A program made the translations under genes and the position numbers. Of a DNA stretch of 64,000 bases, positions 46,409-64,000 are shown piece by piece. Position 1 is the stretch's first letter. Every line of letters begins with the position of its first letter. This DNA is from Allobosea robiniae (GTDB taxonomy: Bacteria > Pseudomonadota > Alphaproteobacteria > Rhizobiales > Beijerinckiaceae). Where the stretch lies: contig NZ_FNBZ01000001.1 of the NCBI RefSeq assembly GCF_900102525.1, positions 248,001 to 312,000 of the forward strand, read 5' to 3'. The notes below the pieces were generated by a model. It made no database searches. It was not told the origin of the DNA and worked only from the letters and a program-made list of their open reading frames with translations.

Positions 46409-46483
46409 TGGCGCGGTCTACGGGAGTCGAACCCGTCTCCCCAGCGTGAAAGGCTGGTGTCCTAACCGATAGACGAAGACCGC
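46409..46483 (-). tRNA. tRNA-Glu (anticodon TTC)
   Basis: Cloverleaf on the minus strand: acceptor stem GCGGTCT / AGACCGC, anticodon arm CCAGC-CTTTCAC-GCTGG with TTC in the loop, T arm ACGGG-TTCGACT-CCCGT. Discriminator G is followed by an encoded CCA (46411-46409). Length 75 with CCA. Confidence 0.96.
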
Positions 46484-59398: not shown

Positions 59399-60505
59399 TC
59401 AGCGCGGCCCGGCCGCGCTCTTCAGCAGGCCGACGAGATCGGCCTGCCGGCGCGTGCCGGTCTTGGCGAGGATGCGTTTCAGCGTCGTGCGCGCCGTGGC
59501 CTCGGTCACGCCGAGGCGCACGGCCGCGGCCCGCGGCGGATGTCCGGCGGCGATGGCCGCTGCCAGCCGCGCCTCGGCCGGAGTCAGATCGAACAAGCCG
59601 GCGATCAGGCCGGCATCAGGCCCCGCCCCCGCTGCAACCGGCGTGGCGACGATGATGGCCCCCGCAAAGGAGAAGATGTCGCGTGCGCGGCCCCGCACGG
59701 GCGCGACATGCACGACCATCGGATTCGTACCGCGCCAGGCCGGAATCGGCAGGGAACGGACGGGCTGGGGCAGGTCCGCGCGCGAGAATCCCGCGATCAC
59801 CGTCGCAAGCATGTCGTCGGCCGGGCCGTAGGCGAGGGAAAGGCGCGCCGCACGATCGAGGAACACCCCTGGAATCAGGTCCTGGAACAGGGCGTTGGCA
59901 TCGAGCACATGGCCACGCAGACCGAGAACCGCCGCCGGAAGCCCCATCAGCTCGAGAGCCTGCGAAGCGGCGCGCGCGCGCTCCATGGCCAGCCGGCGCC
60001 CAAGCAGCCCGGCCCGGGCGAAATGCGGGCGCAAGCGATCCAGCGCGGCGATGGCCTGCCCATTGACGGTGCCTTCGGCAAAGGTCCGCTCGCAATGGAC
60101 GATCGTGGTGTCGCCGGTCGGAGCCGCAATCACCGTCGCGACCCCGGAGCCGTATCCGGCCGGGATCAGGAAGTCCTGATAGACCGGCTCGCGCGCGAGC
60201 TCGTCGCGGCTGAAAACATCCTCGTCGGTGATGAAGCCGTGGCGTCCATGCGCGAGCAGGCGCTGCGCCCGCTCGTTGACCGCAAACGGGATGCGGCGCA
60301 GGACTTCCTCGTAGTCGTCACCGAATTCGGGTGACGAGGCGAGCAGACGCACGTCGTCATGCAGAACCGTTCCGAGCAGCGCCTCGCGGCAGCTGGCGAT
60401 CCGGGCCGTGTCGCGGAGCACGGCGGGCCAACTCTCAGGCACGATCGCGGCTTCGTAGATGCCGTCGATCAACGCATTCTCGAACTCGCTGCCTGCCACG
60501 TCCAT
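59399..60505 (-). CDS. LuxR-type transcriptional regulator
   Basis: 368 residues. The C-terminal helix-turn-helix (FDLTPAEARLAAAIAAG, AAAVRLGVTEATARTTLKRI, about 305-360) is LuxR-type. The N-terminal about 290 residues are an uncharacterised sensor region with PAS-like character (ALELMGLPAAVLGLRGHVLDANALFQDL). No autoinducer-domain or receiver signature. Target unknown; it stands alone between argC and the FAH-family gene. Confidence 0.82.
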   Translation of the reverse strand: MDVAGSEFENALIDGIYEAAIVPESWPAVLRDTARIASCREALLGTVLHDDVRLLASSPEFGDDYEEVLRRIPFAVNERAQRLLAHGRHGFITDEDVFSRDELAREPVYQDFLIPAGYGSGVATVIAAPTGDTTIVHCERTFAEGTVNGQAIAALDRLRPHFARAGLLGRRLAMERARAASQALELMGLPAAVLGLRGHVLDANALFQDLIPGVFLDRAARLSLAYGPADDMLATVIAGFSRADLPQPVRSLPIPAWRGTNPMVVHVAPVRGRARDIFSFAGAIIVATPVAAGAGPDAGLIAGLFDLTPAEARLAAAIAAGHPPRAAAVRLGVTEATARTTLKRILAKTGTRRQADLVGLLKSAAGPR

Positions 60506-60604: not shown

Positions 60605-61540
60605 TCAGCCCTCCGGCAGGCCGAGCATCAGGCGGATGTTCTGCACCGCCGCGCCCGACGCGCCCTTGCCGAGATTGTCGAGGCGCGCGACCAGCACCGC
60701 CTGGCCGAGATCGTCCTGCCCGAACACCGTAAGTTCCAGCTTGTTGGTGTCGTTCAGCGCTTCCGGCTCGATCTTGCCGCCCTTGCCATCCTGCGGGACG
60801 ACGCTGACATAGGTCGAGCCGGCATAGCGCTCGGCCAGGGCGTGGTGGAGATCGGCGATGCCGGGCCGTCCGGGAAGCGCATCGAGGTGCAGCGGCACCG
60901 AGACCAGCATGCCCTGCCGGAAATTGCCGACGGAAGGCACGAAGATCGGCCGCCGGGTCAGGCGGGCATAGGCCTGCAATTCAGGCAGGTGCTTGTGGCG
61001 CAGGCCGAGGCCGTAAAGCTCGAAGGCCGGAGCGACGCCGGTCTCGAAATCCTCGATCATCGACTTGCCGCCGCCGGAATAGCCGGAGACGGCATTGACC
61101 GTGACCGGATGGTCCTGCGCCATCAGCCCGGCATCGACGAGCGGGCGCAAGAGCGCGATGGCGCCGGTCGGATAGCAGCCGGGATTGGCGACGCGGTCGG
61201 CTTTGGCGATCTTCCCGGCATGGCCGGGCTCGAGCTCGGCGAAGCCGTAGACCCAGCCCGGAGCGACGCGATGTGCGGTCGCGGCATCGACGATCTTGGG
61301 CGCATCGGAGCCAAGCTGATCAGCCAGCGCGACCGATTCCTTCGCAGCCTCGTCGGGCAGGCAGAGCACGACGAGATCGACGCTCGCCATCATGTCCTTG
61401 CGCGCGGCGGGGTCCTTGCGCTTGTCGGGGTCGATGCTCTTGACCGCGACCTCCGGCACCGCGGCCAGACGTTCGCGGATGCCGAGCCCGGTGGTGCCGG
61501 CTTCGCCGTCGATGAAGATGGTTTTCAGGTTCTGGCTCAT
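60605..61540 (-). CDS. argC: N-acetyl-gamma-glutamyl-phosphate reductase
   Basis: Third step of arginine synthesis, 311 residues (short, type 2 ArgC). Rossmann start TIFIDGEAGTTGLGI, catalytic C122 in ANPGCYPTGAIALLRPL, substrate His in YGLGLRHKHLPEL. The ATG at 61540 is chosen; an ATG at 61624 would translate through the upstream terminator. Upstream lie a terminator and an Arg-rich leader ORF, suggesting attenuation by arginine supply. Confidence 0.94.
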   Translation of the reverse strand: MSQNLKTIFIDGEAGTTGLGIRERLAAVPEVAVKSIDPDKRKDPAARKDMMASVDLVVLCLPDEAAKESVALADQLGSDAPKIVDAATAHRVAPGWVYGFAELEPGHAGKIAKADRVANPGCYPTGAIALLRPLVDAGLMAQDHPVTVNAVSGYSGGGKSMIEDFETGVAPAFELYGLGLRHKHLPELQAYARLTRRPIFVPSVGNFRQGMLVSVPLHLDALPGRPGIADLHHALAERYAGSTYVSVVPQDGKGGKIEPEALNDTNKLELTVFGQDDLGQAVLVARLDNLGKGASGAAVQNIRLMLGLPEG

Positions 61541-61590
61541 CGGGATCCCCGGTGGCTGGGCAGACACAGCAATGGATGGGCTTCGGGCAT

Positions 61591-61614
61591 AAAAAAACCG
61601 CGCCTCGGGCGCGG
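61591..61614 (-). terminator. Intrinsic terminator in the argC leader
   Basis: Minus strand: stem CCGCGCC-cga-GGCGCGG followed by seven T residues (61597-61591), 50 bases before the argC ATG and 28 bases after the leader ORF stop. Confidence 0.85.
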
Positions 61615-61642
61615 TCGCGGGCATTCGGGCTTCAGCCGAACG

Positions 61643-61702
61643 TCATCGCGGGCGCGCCGGGGCGGCCTGGCAGGGGCGACGTCGGGTGAAGCTCGTCATC
61701 AT
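61643..61702 (-). CDS. Putative arginine leader peptide of argC
   Basis: A 19-residue ORF starting with two ATGs: MMTSFTRRRPCQAAPARPR, then TGA. Five of 19 residues are Arg, including an RRR run at 7-9. GAGG stands five bases before the second ATG. The expected transcript start, from the promoter at 61710-61738, lies within a few bases of the ATG, as in leaderless Rhizobium trp leaders. The leader base run GGCGCG (minus strand, 61658-61653) can pair with the left arm of the terminator. High GC makes Arg codons common, so chance is not excluded. Confidence 0.55.
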   Translation of the reverse strand: MMTSFTRRRPCQAAPARPR

Positions 61703-61709
61703 GGCCTCG

Positions 61710-61738
61710 TATATGTTCGCGCTTGAGCGAGCTGTCAA
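61710..61738 (-). promoter_or_regulatory. Promoter of the argC leader transcript
   Basis: Minus strand TTGACA (61738-61733), 17-base spacer, CATATA (61715-61710). The -35 is a perfect consensus. Start of transcription would fall near 61703, at the leader ATG. Confidence 0.6.
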
Positions 61739-61760
61739 TCGGAGCTTGCGCTCCGGTCCC

Positions 61761-61788
61761 GTCACTGCGAGCGCAGCGAAGCAATGAC
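61761..61788. repeat. Short dispersed repeat (GTCACTGCGAGCG type)
   Basis: GTCACTGCGAGCGCAGCGAA-GCAATGAC, with GTCA/TGAC ends, similar in style to common bacterial interspersed repeats. It lies just upstream of the argC leader promoter. Confidence 0.5.
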
Positions 61789-61916
61789 GATGGACTTGTC
61801 GGGCACGAAAGTTGAAGCGCGGGAATCGCTTCGCGGTCTTTCCTCGCAAAGCGATTCAATGCTTTCGCGGATCGTTTCGACATGCCGGTGGCTTCGTCCG
61901 TGGACGTCTCGAACGG

Positions 61917-62201
61917 TCAGCGGCGCGCGGTCAGCCAGACATAGAGGCACCAGGGCAGGATCAGGGCGAGCGCGGTCAGGACGAGCCTCAGCATCGTCCA
62001 GGCATTGGGGTTGTTGAGCGCCCGGCCATCGAGGTCCGGCACGCCGTGGATCAGCCCGAGCGCCACCGCCGGAGCCAGGAAGACGAGCAGCGCCCGGCCG
62101 ATGCGCTGCGCGCGCGGGAGTTCCTCACGCGCCAGCATCAGCAGGGCCGGCACCGCGATCATGCCGAAGGCGATCAGGACAAGAAGGACGCGCATGGGCA
62201 T
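61917..62201 (-). CDS. Small integral membrane protein
   Basis: 94 residues with three membrane segments (about 4-24, 36-52, 70-90) and a basic C-terminus (LTARR). No family recognised. An alternative ATG lies two codons in (62195). It follows the SDR gene after 44 bases on the same strand and may be co-transcribed. Confidence 0.65.
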   Translation of the reverse strand: MPMRVLLVLIAFGMIAVPALLMLAREELPRAQRIGRALLVFLAPAVALGLIHGVPDLDGRALNNPNAWTMLRLVLTALALILPWCLYVWLTARR

Positions 62202-62245
62202 TTGCTACATCAGAGGCGCAGATTGCGCGAGGCCTGCCGCCGAAG

Positions 62246-62998
62246 CTAGCGCCCGCCGGCGACCTTGAGAATGATGCCGGTCGTGTAGCTCGATGCCTCC
62301 GAGAGCAGGAACAGCACCGCCTCGGCGATCTCTTCGGCCGTCGCAGCGCGCTTCAGCGGAATCAGCGGCGCGATCCGGGCGACGCGACCAGCCTCGCCGG
62401 TGGACAGCGCGTGGATCTCCGTCTCGGTGATGCCGGGTGCCACCGCGTTCACGCGGACACCGTGCGGCGCGAGCTCCTTGGCGAGGCCGATGGTCAGGGA
62501 ATCCACGGCTCCCTTCGAGGCGGCGTACCAGACATATTCGCCGGGCGAGCCCAGCTCGGCCGCAACGGAGGAGATGTTCACGATCGCCCTGCCCTGCACG
62601 CCTTCGTTCGCCATCAGCGCGCGGGCCGCCTCCCGCGCGACAAGGATCGCCCCGGTGACGTTGACGTCGATGCATTCGCGGATGAGGGCGGTATCCGCCT
62701 CGGCCAGCGTGCCGGATTTGCCTGTGATGCCTGCATTGTTGACGACATGGGTCAGCGGGCCCAGCGCCGCCTTCGCCTCGGCAAAGATGCGGATGATGTC
62801 GGTGACATCAGCCATGTCGCCCTGCAGCGCCACAGCCTTCGCGCCTGCCGCCTCGCAGGCCGCGACGACTTCGGCCGCGGCCTTGGCGTTGCTCTGGTAG
62901 TTCACCGCGACGTCGTAGCCGCGCCCGGCGGCCATGATGCAGATCGCGGCACCGATGCCGCGGCTGCCGCCGGTGACGAGAAGAACGGGACGGCTCAT
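62246..62998 (-). CDS. Short-chain dehydrogenase/reductase
   Basis: 250-residue classical SDR. Cofactor motif TGGSRGIGAAI, NNAG in VVNNAGITG, catalytic Ser in NISSVAAEL and YxxxK in YAASKGAVDSL. The C-terminal TTGIILKVAGGR is FabG/glucose-dehydrogenase-like. Start at 62998 has AGGAG upstream; the ATG at 63037 lacks one. Substrate unknown. Confidence 0.9.
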   Translation of the reverse strand: MSRPVLLVTGGSRGIGAAICIMAAGRGYDVAVNYQSNAKAAAEVVAACEAAGAKAVALQGDMADVTDIIRIFAEAKAALGPLTHVVNNAGITGKSGTLAEADTALIRECIDVNVTGAILVAREAARALMANEGVQGRAIVNISSVAAELGSPGEYVWYAASKGAVDSLTIGLAKELAPHGVRVNAVAPGITETEIHALSTGEAGRVARIAPLIPLKRAATAEEIAEAVLFLLSEASSYTTGIILKVAGGR

Positions 62999-63198: not shown

Positions 63199-64000
63199 TT
63201 ATTCGACATGAACGACGACATCGTAACCGAGCGACTTTAGGGCTTTCGACGTCCGGCCATTTCGCGGCGGGAATCGATCCGGCATGGCCCAACCAGCCAA
63301 CTCCCCCAAAGCGCTGATCCCAAGCCCGTCAATTTTCCACTTTGGATCGCTGACAGCCGCCCACAAGCGGGTCGGCAAATCCTCCGCTGAGCCACCATAA
63401 AGAACGTGGTTAAGTTGCTCCTTCACATGCGCGCCACTGCCCGTGCTATCCATCCAGATGCGCGCGGCCAATGCCTTGATCTTCTCCGGGATCGAGTACC
63501 GCCGTCCACCCGGAAGTTTGACGGACGCATTGCTCACGCGCCGTGCGTAGTCTGTGATCGCATGCACTTTCGAGCAGATTCCCTCAAACTGCTCCTGCGT
63601 CATCGCCGTCAGCGCTTCTGCCGTCAGCGAATTTCGCAAAAAGGGCGCCGTGGCACTTAGCATGGTCTCTTCGTTAGAGGGGGCGTGTTTGAGCGCTCGC
63701 CACCACTCGACGGCCTCTTGAAGAGCCTCTTCGCGTCGGCTTTTGTTTCGCTCATAGTGAGCTCGGTATTGAGTTTTGCGATGCTCGTCGATGGTGCGTT
63801 CGTAATAGTGAGCATGCAGAAATTGGTCAGCCTGAGCACCTGCGGGCGCTTTCTCGGGGACCCAAATGGGCCTGTTTTCAGCGACGCTTACCAAAGCCCC
63901 GATATTACGAATATCCTGAAGCGTTGCGTGCCATTCGGACAAAAATTGTGAGCGACGTTGCTCCAACGCCGAGCTTGGTGAGTTTTTAACAAGACCAGCC
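63199..64000 (-). CDS. Unknown protein, lower GC, 5' part beyond window
   Basis: The frame is open from the right edge to a stop at 63199, about 267 codons. The first in-window start is a TTG at 63966 and no stop precedes it, so the gene may begin outside. The visible protein has a charged helical N-terminal half (HYERNKSRREEALQEAVEWW) and a C-terminal domain with WMDSTGSGAHVKEQLNHVLYGG and ISALGELAGWAMPDRFPPRNG. I do not recognise the family. Base composition is clearly lower in GC than the neighbours and the 120-base 3' flank is AT-rich, suggesting transfer. Confidence 0.7.
   Translation of the reverse strand, partial: AGLVKNSPSSALEQRRSQFLSEWHATLQDIRNIGALVSVAENRPIWVPEKAPAGAQADQFLHAHYYERTIDEHRKTQYRAHYERNKSRREEALQEAVEWWRALKHAPSNEETMLSATAPFLRNSLTAEALTAMTQEQFEGICSKVHAITDYARRVSNASVKLPGGRRYSIPEKIKALAARIWMDSTGSGAHVKEQLNHVLYGGSAEDLPTRLWAAVSDPKWKIDGLGISALGELAGWAMPDRFPPRNGRTSKALKSLGYDVVVHVE

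Follow-up and report, generated by a model that had tools for sequence, protein, structure and literature searches.

An arginine-rich leader ORF and terminator upstream of argC as a predicted ribosome-mediated attenuator recurring in alphaproteobacteria

The window, that is, the whole 64-kb stretch of DNA analysed, carries on its minus strand an argC gene preceded by a compact arrangement of promoter, leader ORF and intrinsic terminator (Table 1). The gene product scores 397.9 bits against the TIGR01851 profile, whose cut-off is 229.85. Its start was put at 61540 because M[S/N][Q/H]N is common to the 30 relatives read at this point, whereas the distance from the terminator to this ATG, 50 bases in the window, is variable (40 to 102 bases). 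If translation began instead at an in-frame ATG at 61624, ArgC would be 339 aa long and its gene would overlap the terminator. A second argC homologue, 34% identical, lies outside the window in the same genome (G000:C17:217866-218603), and similar second matches occur in other genomes of the genus. Near argC, the ORFs 59399-60505, 61917-62201 and 63199-63966 (-) have no Pfam match at E ≤ 0.001.

Table 1. Features of the argC leader region in the window (positions are those of the whole stretch).
Feature	Positions	Strand	Basis
argC, N-acetyl-gamma-glutamyl-phosphate reductase, TIGR01851 argC_other	60605..61540	-	profile match; start from relatives
Intrinsic terminator hairpin and T run	61591..61616	-	7-bp core paired in 100% of 30 sequences
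ACCGCGCC, terminator 5' arm and predicted antiterminator right arm	61608..61615	-	CCGCGC invariant in 30/30 aligned rows
Leader ORF, 19 codons and TGA, MMTSFTRRRPCQAAPARPR	61643..61702	-	ATG at expected +1 (predicted leaderless)
Leader stop TGA	61645-61643	-	sequence read
Predicted antiterminator left arm GGCGCG, codons 15-17	61653..61658	-	fold with ribosome at RRR; Ala codon preference
Putative regulatory codons CGA CGT CGC (Arg7-Arg9)	61676..61684	-	RRR kept in 30/30 same-genus loci
Leader start ATG	61702	-	7 bases past CATATA
-10 hexamer CATATA, 17-base spacer to -35	61710..61715	-	CATAT[A/C] in 30/30 same-genus loci
-35 hexamer TTGACA	61733..61738	-	sequence read

An earlier note on this DNA had described a TTGACA hexamer with a 17-base spacer, a 19-residue leader with RRR and two more Arg residues, a GGCGCG within the leader, and a strong terminator of a 7-bp stem plus seven T followed by argC. 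All of these elements and their coordinates proved correct. The terminator hairpin (61616-61596, minus strand) has nine pairs as given by the prediction tool, of which seven form the invariant core, and the seven T (61597-61591, minus strand) directly follow it. Since the -10 hexamer reads CATATA, the promoter is missing from the list of the consensus scanner. Just 5' of the promoter, a palindrome-like stretch, GCTTCGCTGCGCTCGCAGTGACG, occurs as a single copy in the window (61760-61782, minus strand); we take it to be similar to the dispersed repeats of alphaproteobacteria.

The arrangement is strongly conserved within the genus. Sixty-one same-genus genomes were searched, the window's own included, and argC of this form is present in 60; the leader adjoins it in all 60, and the terminator is unrecognisable in one. 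The upstream regions of 30 of these genomes, again including the window's own, were read directly, and every one (30/30) contains a leader of 19 codons in which codons 7–9 encode RRR, the ...R.R ending before the stop, CATAT[A/C] 5' of the leader and the terminator. Such sharing of leader length, Arg run and C-terminal ending indicates conservation beyond chance. For 59 of these 60 genomes, a covariance model built from the 30 regions has a match next to argC (E 1.8e-36 to 0.016), as judged by comparing the coordinates of model matches and argC by eye. The remaining genome, G054, has a leader before argC, an unrecognisable terminator and no model match beside the gene (L337, G054:C68:128700-129500), and perhaps represents a decaying attenuator. 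Genome G029 is an assembly without this argC, and its element lies at a contig end. Divergent copies were found in seven same-genus genomes; one is L078, and of the six others that were read, four show leader and terminator. Of the remaining two, L334 has a 30-codon leader, and the other is the G054 copy (L337). The earlier note had regarded loss of the leader ORF or of the Arg run among relatives as evidence against its reading; the Arg run, the stop-codon region and the terminator are all kept in the genus and, in other families, the element recurs before both forms of argC, before argD(-argF) and before argJ.

Outside the genus, the element is patchy. The covariance model had matches with E ≤ 0.1 in 61 of 199 family genomes; a good many of the weaker matches are false. 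Among 21 fetched loci (L058–L078; nine close same-genus ones apart), argC is downstream in all, and an Arg-rich leader ORF ends 5' of the terminator in all 21; at the DNA level, a search through 149 family genomes had low power. For 297 genomes of the order, 18 of the 29 fetched loci were true by the element scan described below, with argC downstream in 16, argD in one (L087) and a Rid-family-like gene in one (L082). Twelve of these 16 argC genes are merely 29–33% identical to the window argC, and L083, the one tested among the twelve, is of the TIGR01850 form. The 385 class genomes gave four true elements besides the window's own genome (G545, G626, G628 and G655; R3 model), three before argC and one before argD (100 residues of argD tested), and a search of 279 phylum genomes yielded no true element among the fetched loci except the window's own. 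An argC match is present in 126 of 130 order genomes, and among the best-scoring 29 order-level argC upstream regions the element is clear in two and doubtful in one. Searches over more than 40 genomes used stricter filters, and weak copies may be missed there.

Several model matches were set aside. Eleven of the 29 order-level matches (L095, L097–L099 and L101–L107) were rejected because they have no Arg leader, and of the loci L294–L331, which are the best-scoring rows of their searches, the element scan accepts just one, L294 (G655 again). In 20 further fetched stretches, the clear leader elements are L120, L124 and L128 only. A second match in the window's own genome (G000:C15:356703) and further weak matches proved to be either ordinary terminators at gene ends or stretches that have no leader, and the match at L296:1554-1615 (-) is a fluoride riboswitch (55.2 bits) and no attenuator.

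Downstream genes were assessed with a gene-blind pattern comprising the stop-codon region and terminator only, searched in one genome per species (84,980 species). In frame, the pattern fixes the last residues A-R-x-R and requires GCGCG, and it is free of the Arg run, the promoter and the gene. It returned 85 stretches, 80 of which (L165–L244) were classified; these precede argC (70), argD (4), argJ (4) and a cupin/efflux-like pair (1), and for one the locus ends too early to show the gene. At least four Arg residues with an RR or RC pair are present in 78 of the 80, the exceptions being L223 and L243. All four argJ targets are Reyranella loci; L169, L175 and L204 are above the ArgJ cut-off, and L225 is a 183-residue ORF matching the first part of ArgJ. 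In L178 and L219, argD is followed by argF. Two copies are carried by one metagenome-assembled genome, on the contigs L219 (before argD-argF) and L222 (before argC), so at least two attenuators can coexist. By record name, the carriers are mainly Bosea and Microvirga; the others are Chelatococcus, Reyranella, Hyphomicrobium, two Bradyrhizobium, one labelled Methylobacterium, and assemblies assigned to Hyphomicrobiaceae, Rhizobiales and Alphaproteobacteria.

Two loci have other neighbours. At L201 (Hyphomicrobium sp. CS1BSMeth3), the Arg leader and terminator are intact, and the genes that follow are a cupin-like gene, recognised by eye, and an RhtB/LysE-like transporter, scoring below cut-offs. 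At L082 (G466:C2), the element lies before a gene for a Rid-family-like protein, and argC was not found in the remaining 1.4 kb of the contig. The genes downstream at L201 and L082 are without a known role in arginine synthesis, which counts against the interpretation given below.

Of 249 loci, 176 passed the element scan, which needs at least four Arg residues and an RR or RC pair, and 125 of these are unique; as the scan itself requires Arg, the Arg share of these elements is biased upward. The distance from TTGAC to the leader ATG is 35–39 bases in 125/125 unique elements (the scan admitting 32–45), and a script finds an in-frame ATG 35–42 bases past TTGAC in 79 of the 80 pattern-found loci. 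From this promoter spacing, we infer that transcription starts at or within 1–2 bases of the leader ATG. The leaderless layout predicted in this way characterises the trans-acting rnTrpL, as described in PMC7298713 and PMC10117765, and a terminated small RNA or peptide might likewise act in trans here, in the manner of rnTrpL/peTrpL, with attenuation of argC being secondary. The element tracks arg genes and has no fixed locus, which points towards a role in cis, and we therefore hold a primarily trans-acting product to be highly improbable.

The attenuator reading requires that the leader and the terminator compete for the left terminator arm. The earlier note had proposed that a ribosome stalled at RRR lets GGCGCG pair with CGCGCC, and that a ribosome at the stop permits termination; the computed folds of the window RNA agree with both proposals. 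When a ribosome is modelled at RRR on a transcript that reaches just past the left terminator arm, the two segments pair in a fold of -27.4 kcal/mol. In the full RNA, the terminator is absent when a ribosome is at RRR; it forms when the ribosome has moved to the stop and also when there is none. Thirty-nine nonredundant, divergent elements, ten of them from the pattern, were compared with controls that have synonymous leaders and shuffled spacers. When a stalled ribosome is modelled, the left terminator arm is sequestered in 39/39 elements vs a mean of 62% in the controls, with mean sequestering probabilities of 0.96 and 0.64, respectively. The value is above the element's own control mean in 38/39 (Wilcoxon p = 3.6e-12), p-values in this set being optimistic because the 39 elements share ancestry. 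In the released state, the terminator forms in 39/39 elements, and with no ribosome it forms in just 26/39. For 23/39, folding the full RNA with a stalled ribosome still gives the terminator as the structure of lowest energy, so the switch must act kinetically. After release, while the right arm is not yet out, the left arm has another partner in 16/39.

The energies of individual pairings are less distinctive. Synonymous recodings of the leader form a duplex with the terminator that is as strong as the natural one (mean z -0.12), and a stem between the Arg run and the stop codon is weaker than recoded stems (z +0.92). Mutual exclusivity of antiterminator and terminator is found in the computed folds only, the bare pairing energy not being above recoded controls. 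No covarying consensus pair was found within the genus; covariation in the terminator is confined to one outer pair (G-C to A-U in 10/30), and covariation of the antiterminator is not demonstrable because its arms hardly vary. A constitutive leader ORF with an ordinary terminator, lowering argC expression with no sensing of arginine, would need nothing beyond the promoter and terminator, and the window terminator is indeed stable without a ribosome. Such an arrangement accounts poorly for sequestering of the terminator arm in excess of recoded controls, for conserved rare Arg codons and for the repeated association with argC, argD and argJ, and we consider it the least probable of the alternatives.

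Spacing and codon usage are consistent with an attenuator as well. In 120 of the 125 elements, the first Arg codon is followed by GCGCG at a distance of 20–33 bases; the five elements without it count against the interpretation. With the pattern-found elements excluded, the figure is 74 of 79 unique elements. The stop codon is located 24–42 bases past the first Arg codon. In 29 nonredundant leaders from outside the pattern search, the Ala codon of the antiterminator arm is GCG in 23/28 cases vs 10/50 of the other leader Ala codons (p = 1.4e-7). In the 39 nonredundant elements, the codons of the Arg run (n = 113) are CGA (42), CGC (42) and CGT (29), with CGG at 0, and CGA opens the run in 32/39. 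In the pooled argC genes, by comparison, CGA makes up 0.7% of Arg codons and CGG 39.8%. The window's genome yielded 44 tRNA genes, and those for Arg have the anticodons ACG, CCG, TCT and CCT, so CGA, CGC and CGT should share tRNA-Arg(ICG), the form expected from inosine modification of the anticodon. According to theory, a sensitive attenuator needs one particular synonymous regulatory codon, as set out in PMC1183508, and the choice among CGA, CGC and CGT offers a natural test of it.

The same data bear on a peptide-based mechanism, in which the Arg-rich nascent peptide would arrest the ribosome upon binding of arginine, ornithine, a polyamine, a drug or another free ligand, as in the SpeFL and erm leaders, and tRNA charging would play no part. 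The C-terminal ends are alike (A.AR.R) across many families, and an arginine-responsive leader exists in Salmonella, as reported in PMC6386406. Against this, the residues from RRR to the end vary among families, and the 12 elements of group f20 lose the C-terminal motif through an earlier stop: their ORFs end at 24–27 bases past the first Arg codon, and GCGCG is kept past the stop, at 27–31 bases, in 10/12, being missing in two. Thus, the RNA and not the peptide seems to be conserved. Moreover, the preference for CGA points to decoding, and arginine-induced arrest would switch argC on at high arginine. Ligand-dependent arrest is therefore very unlikely, even if it is the least improbable of the three alternatives weighed here.

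Collectively, these results support the earlier note's interpretation of the element as an attenuator of argC. Very probably, transcription into argC is attenuated through ribosomes that translate the leader and thereby sense the charging of arginyl-tRNA, and related copies of the element would do the same for argD-argF and argJ. The RNA would start at the leader AUG, or within 1–2 bases of it, and the leaderless 19-codon ORF would be translated immediately. When tRNA-Arg(ICG) is poorly charged, the ribosome would stall at CGA-CGU-CGC and leave GGCGCG free to pair with CGCGCC, the left arm of the terminator; RNA polymerase would then continue into argC past the antiterminator. With ample arginine, the ribosome would reach UGA and cover GGCGCG, and the terminator would form. 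With no ribosome, the leader is predicted to fold on itself, and the terminator would form as well.

ArgR was not found in 31/31 same-genus genomes, in a search positive in 9/14 control genomes, and among the classes studied in PMC5343134, ArgR is reported to be absent outside gammaproteobacteria. The lack of ArgR matches in the genus speaks for the attenuator, which would be a concrete and testable answer to how these bacteria match arginine synthesis to need. A wider proposal is conceivable, albeit doubtful: an attenuator-based arginine regulon may stand in for ArgR in scattered alphaproteobacteria, reading tRNA-Arg(ICG) charging via the rare CGA, and its terminated leaderless RNA and its Arg-rich peptide may have additional functions in trans, as is the case for rnTrpL/peTrpL.

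Rfam contains no family above its gathering score at 61000-62300, and its sole match in the whole window is a tRNA at 46412-46483, with no T-box. An arginine attenuator of this kind was not found in Rfam or in the open-access literature searched, as far as its accessible parts extend; these include surveys of premature terminators and alphaproteobacterial RNAs, in whose available parts no argC case was found. An actinobacterial survey describes attenuators for histidine, threonine and phenylalanine, and arginine T-boxes in other species. The mechanism is thus of a known kind, and its use for arginine, with an arg regulon across gene families, appears to be undescribed in the literature searched. 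Classical attenuation would thereby gain an amino acid that had no such case in that literature.

To our knowledge, none of the E. coli trp, his, leu, ilv, phe and thr attenuators is arginine-specific. They share with the argC element the logic of stalling leading to an antiterminator and arrival at the stop leading to a terminator, as modelled in PMC1183508, and differ in that a leaderless ORF is predicted for the argC element. In the Salmonella ORF34/speF leader, consecutive Arg codons of a leader ORF likewise sense arginine; however, as described in PMC6386406, its target is an ornithine decarboxylase, and its control involves Rho, RNase G and ribosome-site masking in a long leader, so that, unlike the argC element, it is not an intrinsic-terminator attenuator of arginine synthesis. 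The HIRR core of SpeFL/ORF34 (DUF2618), as given in PMC6386406, is absent from the scanned leaders by eye, and argC, argD or argJ, not speF, lies downstream.

Arginine T-boxes (PMC1262725) are another case in which tRNA charging acts on arginine genes at the RNA level, as predicted for the argC element. T-boxes lack a leader ORF and recognise tRNA by direct binding. The uORFC-8-2 leader of cysS in Rhodobacterales is also a predicted alphaproteobacterial ribosome-mediated attenuator found by comparison, differing in its Cys codons and its target cysS (PMC8632094). The rnTrpL/peTrpL system of trpE(G) in Sinorhizobium meliloti is likewise alphaproteobacterial, with a short ORF whose AUG is the 5' end of the RNA, as predicted for the argC element, a run of cognate codons, a terminator and an antiterminator, and a biosynthetic gene on the 3' side (PMC7298713, PMC10117765). 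That system uses Trp codons, controls trpE and, according to these reports, has been demonstrated by experiment, whereas the system predicted here would use Arg codons to control argC, argD and argJ.
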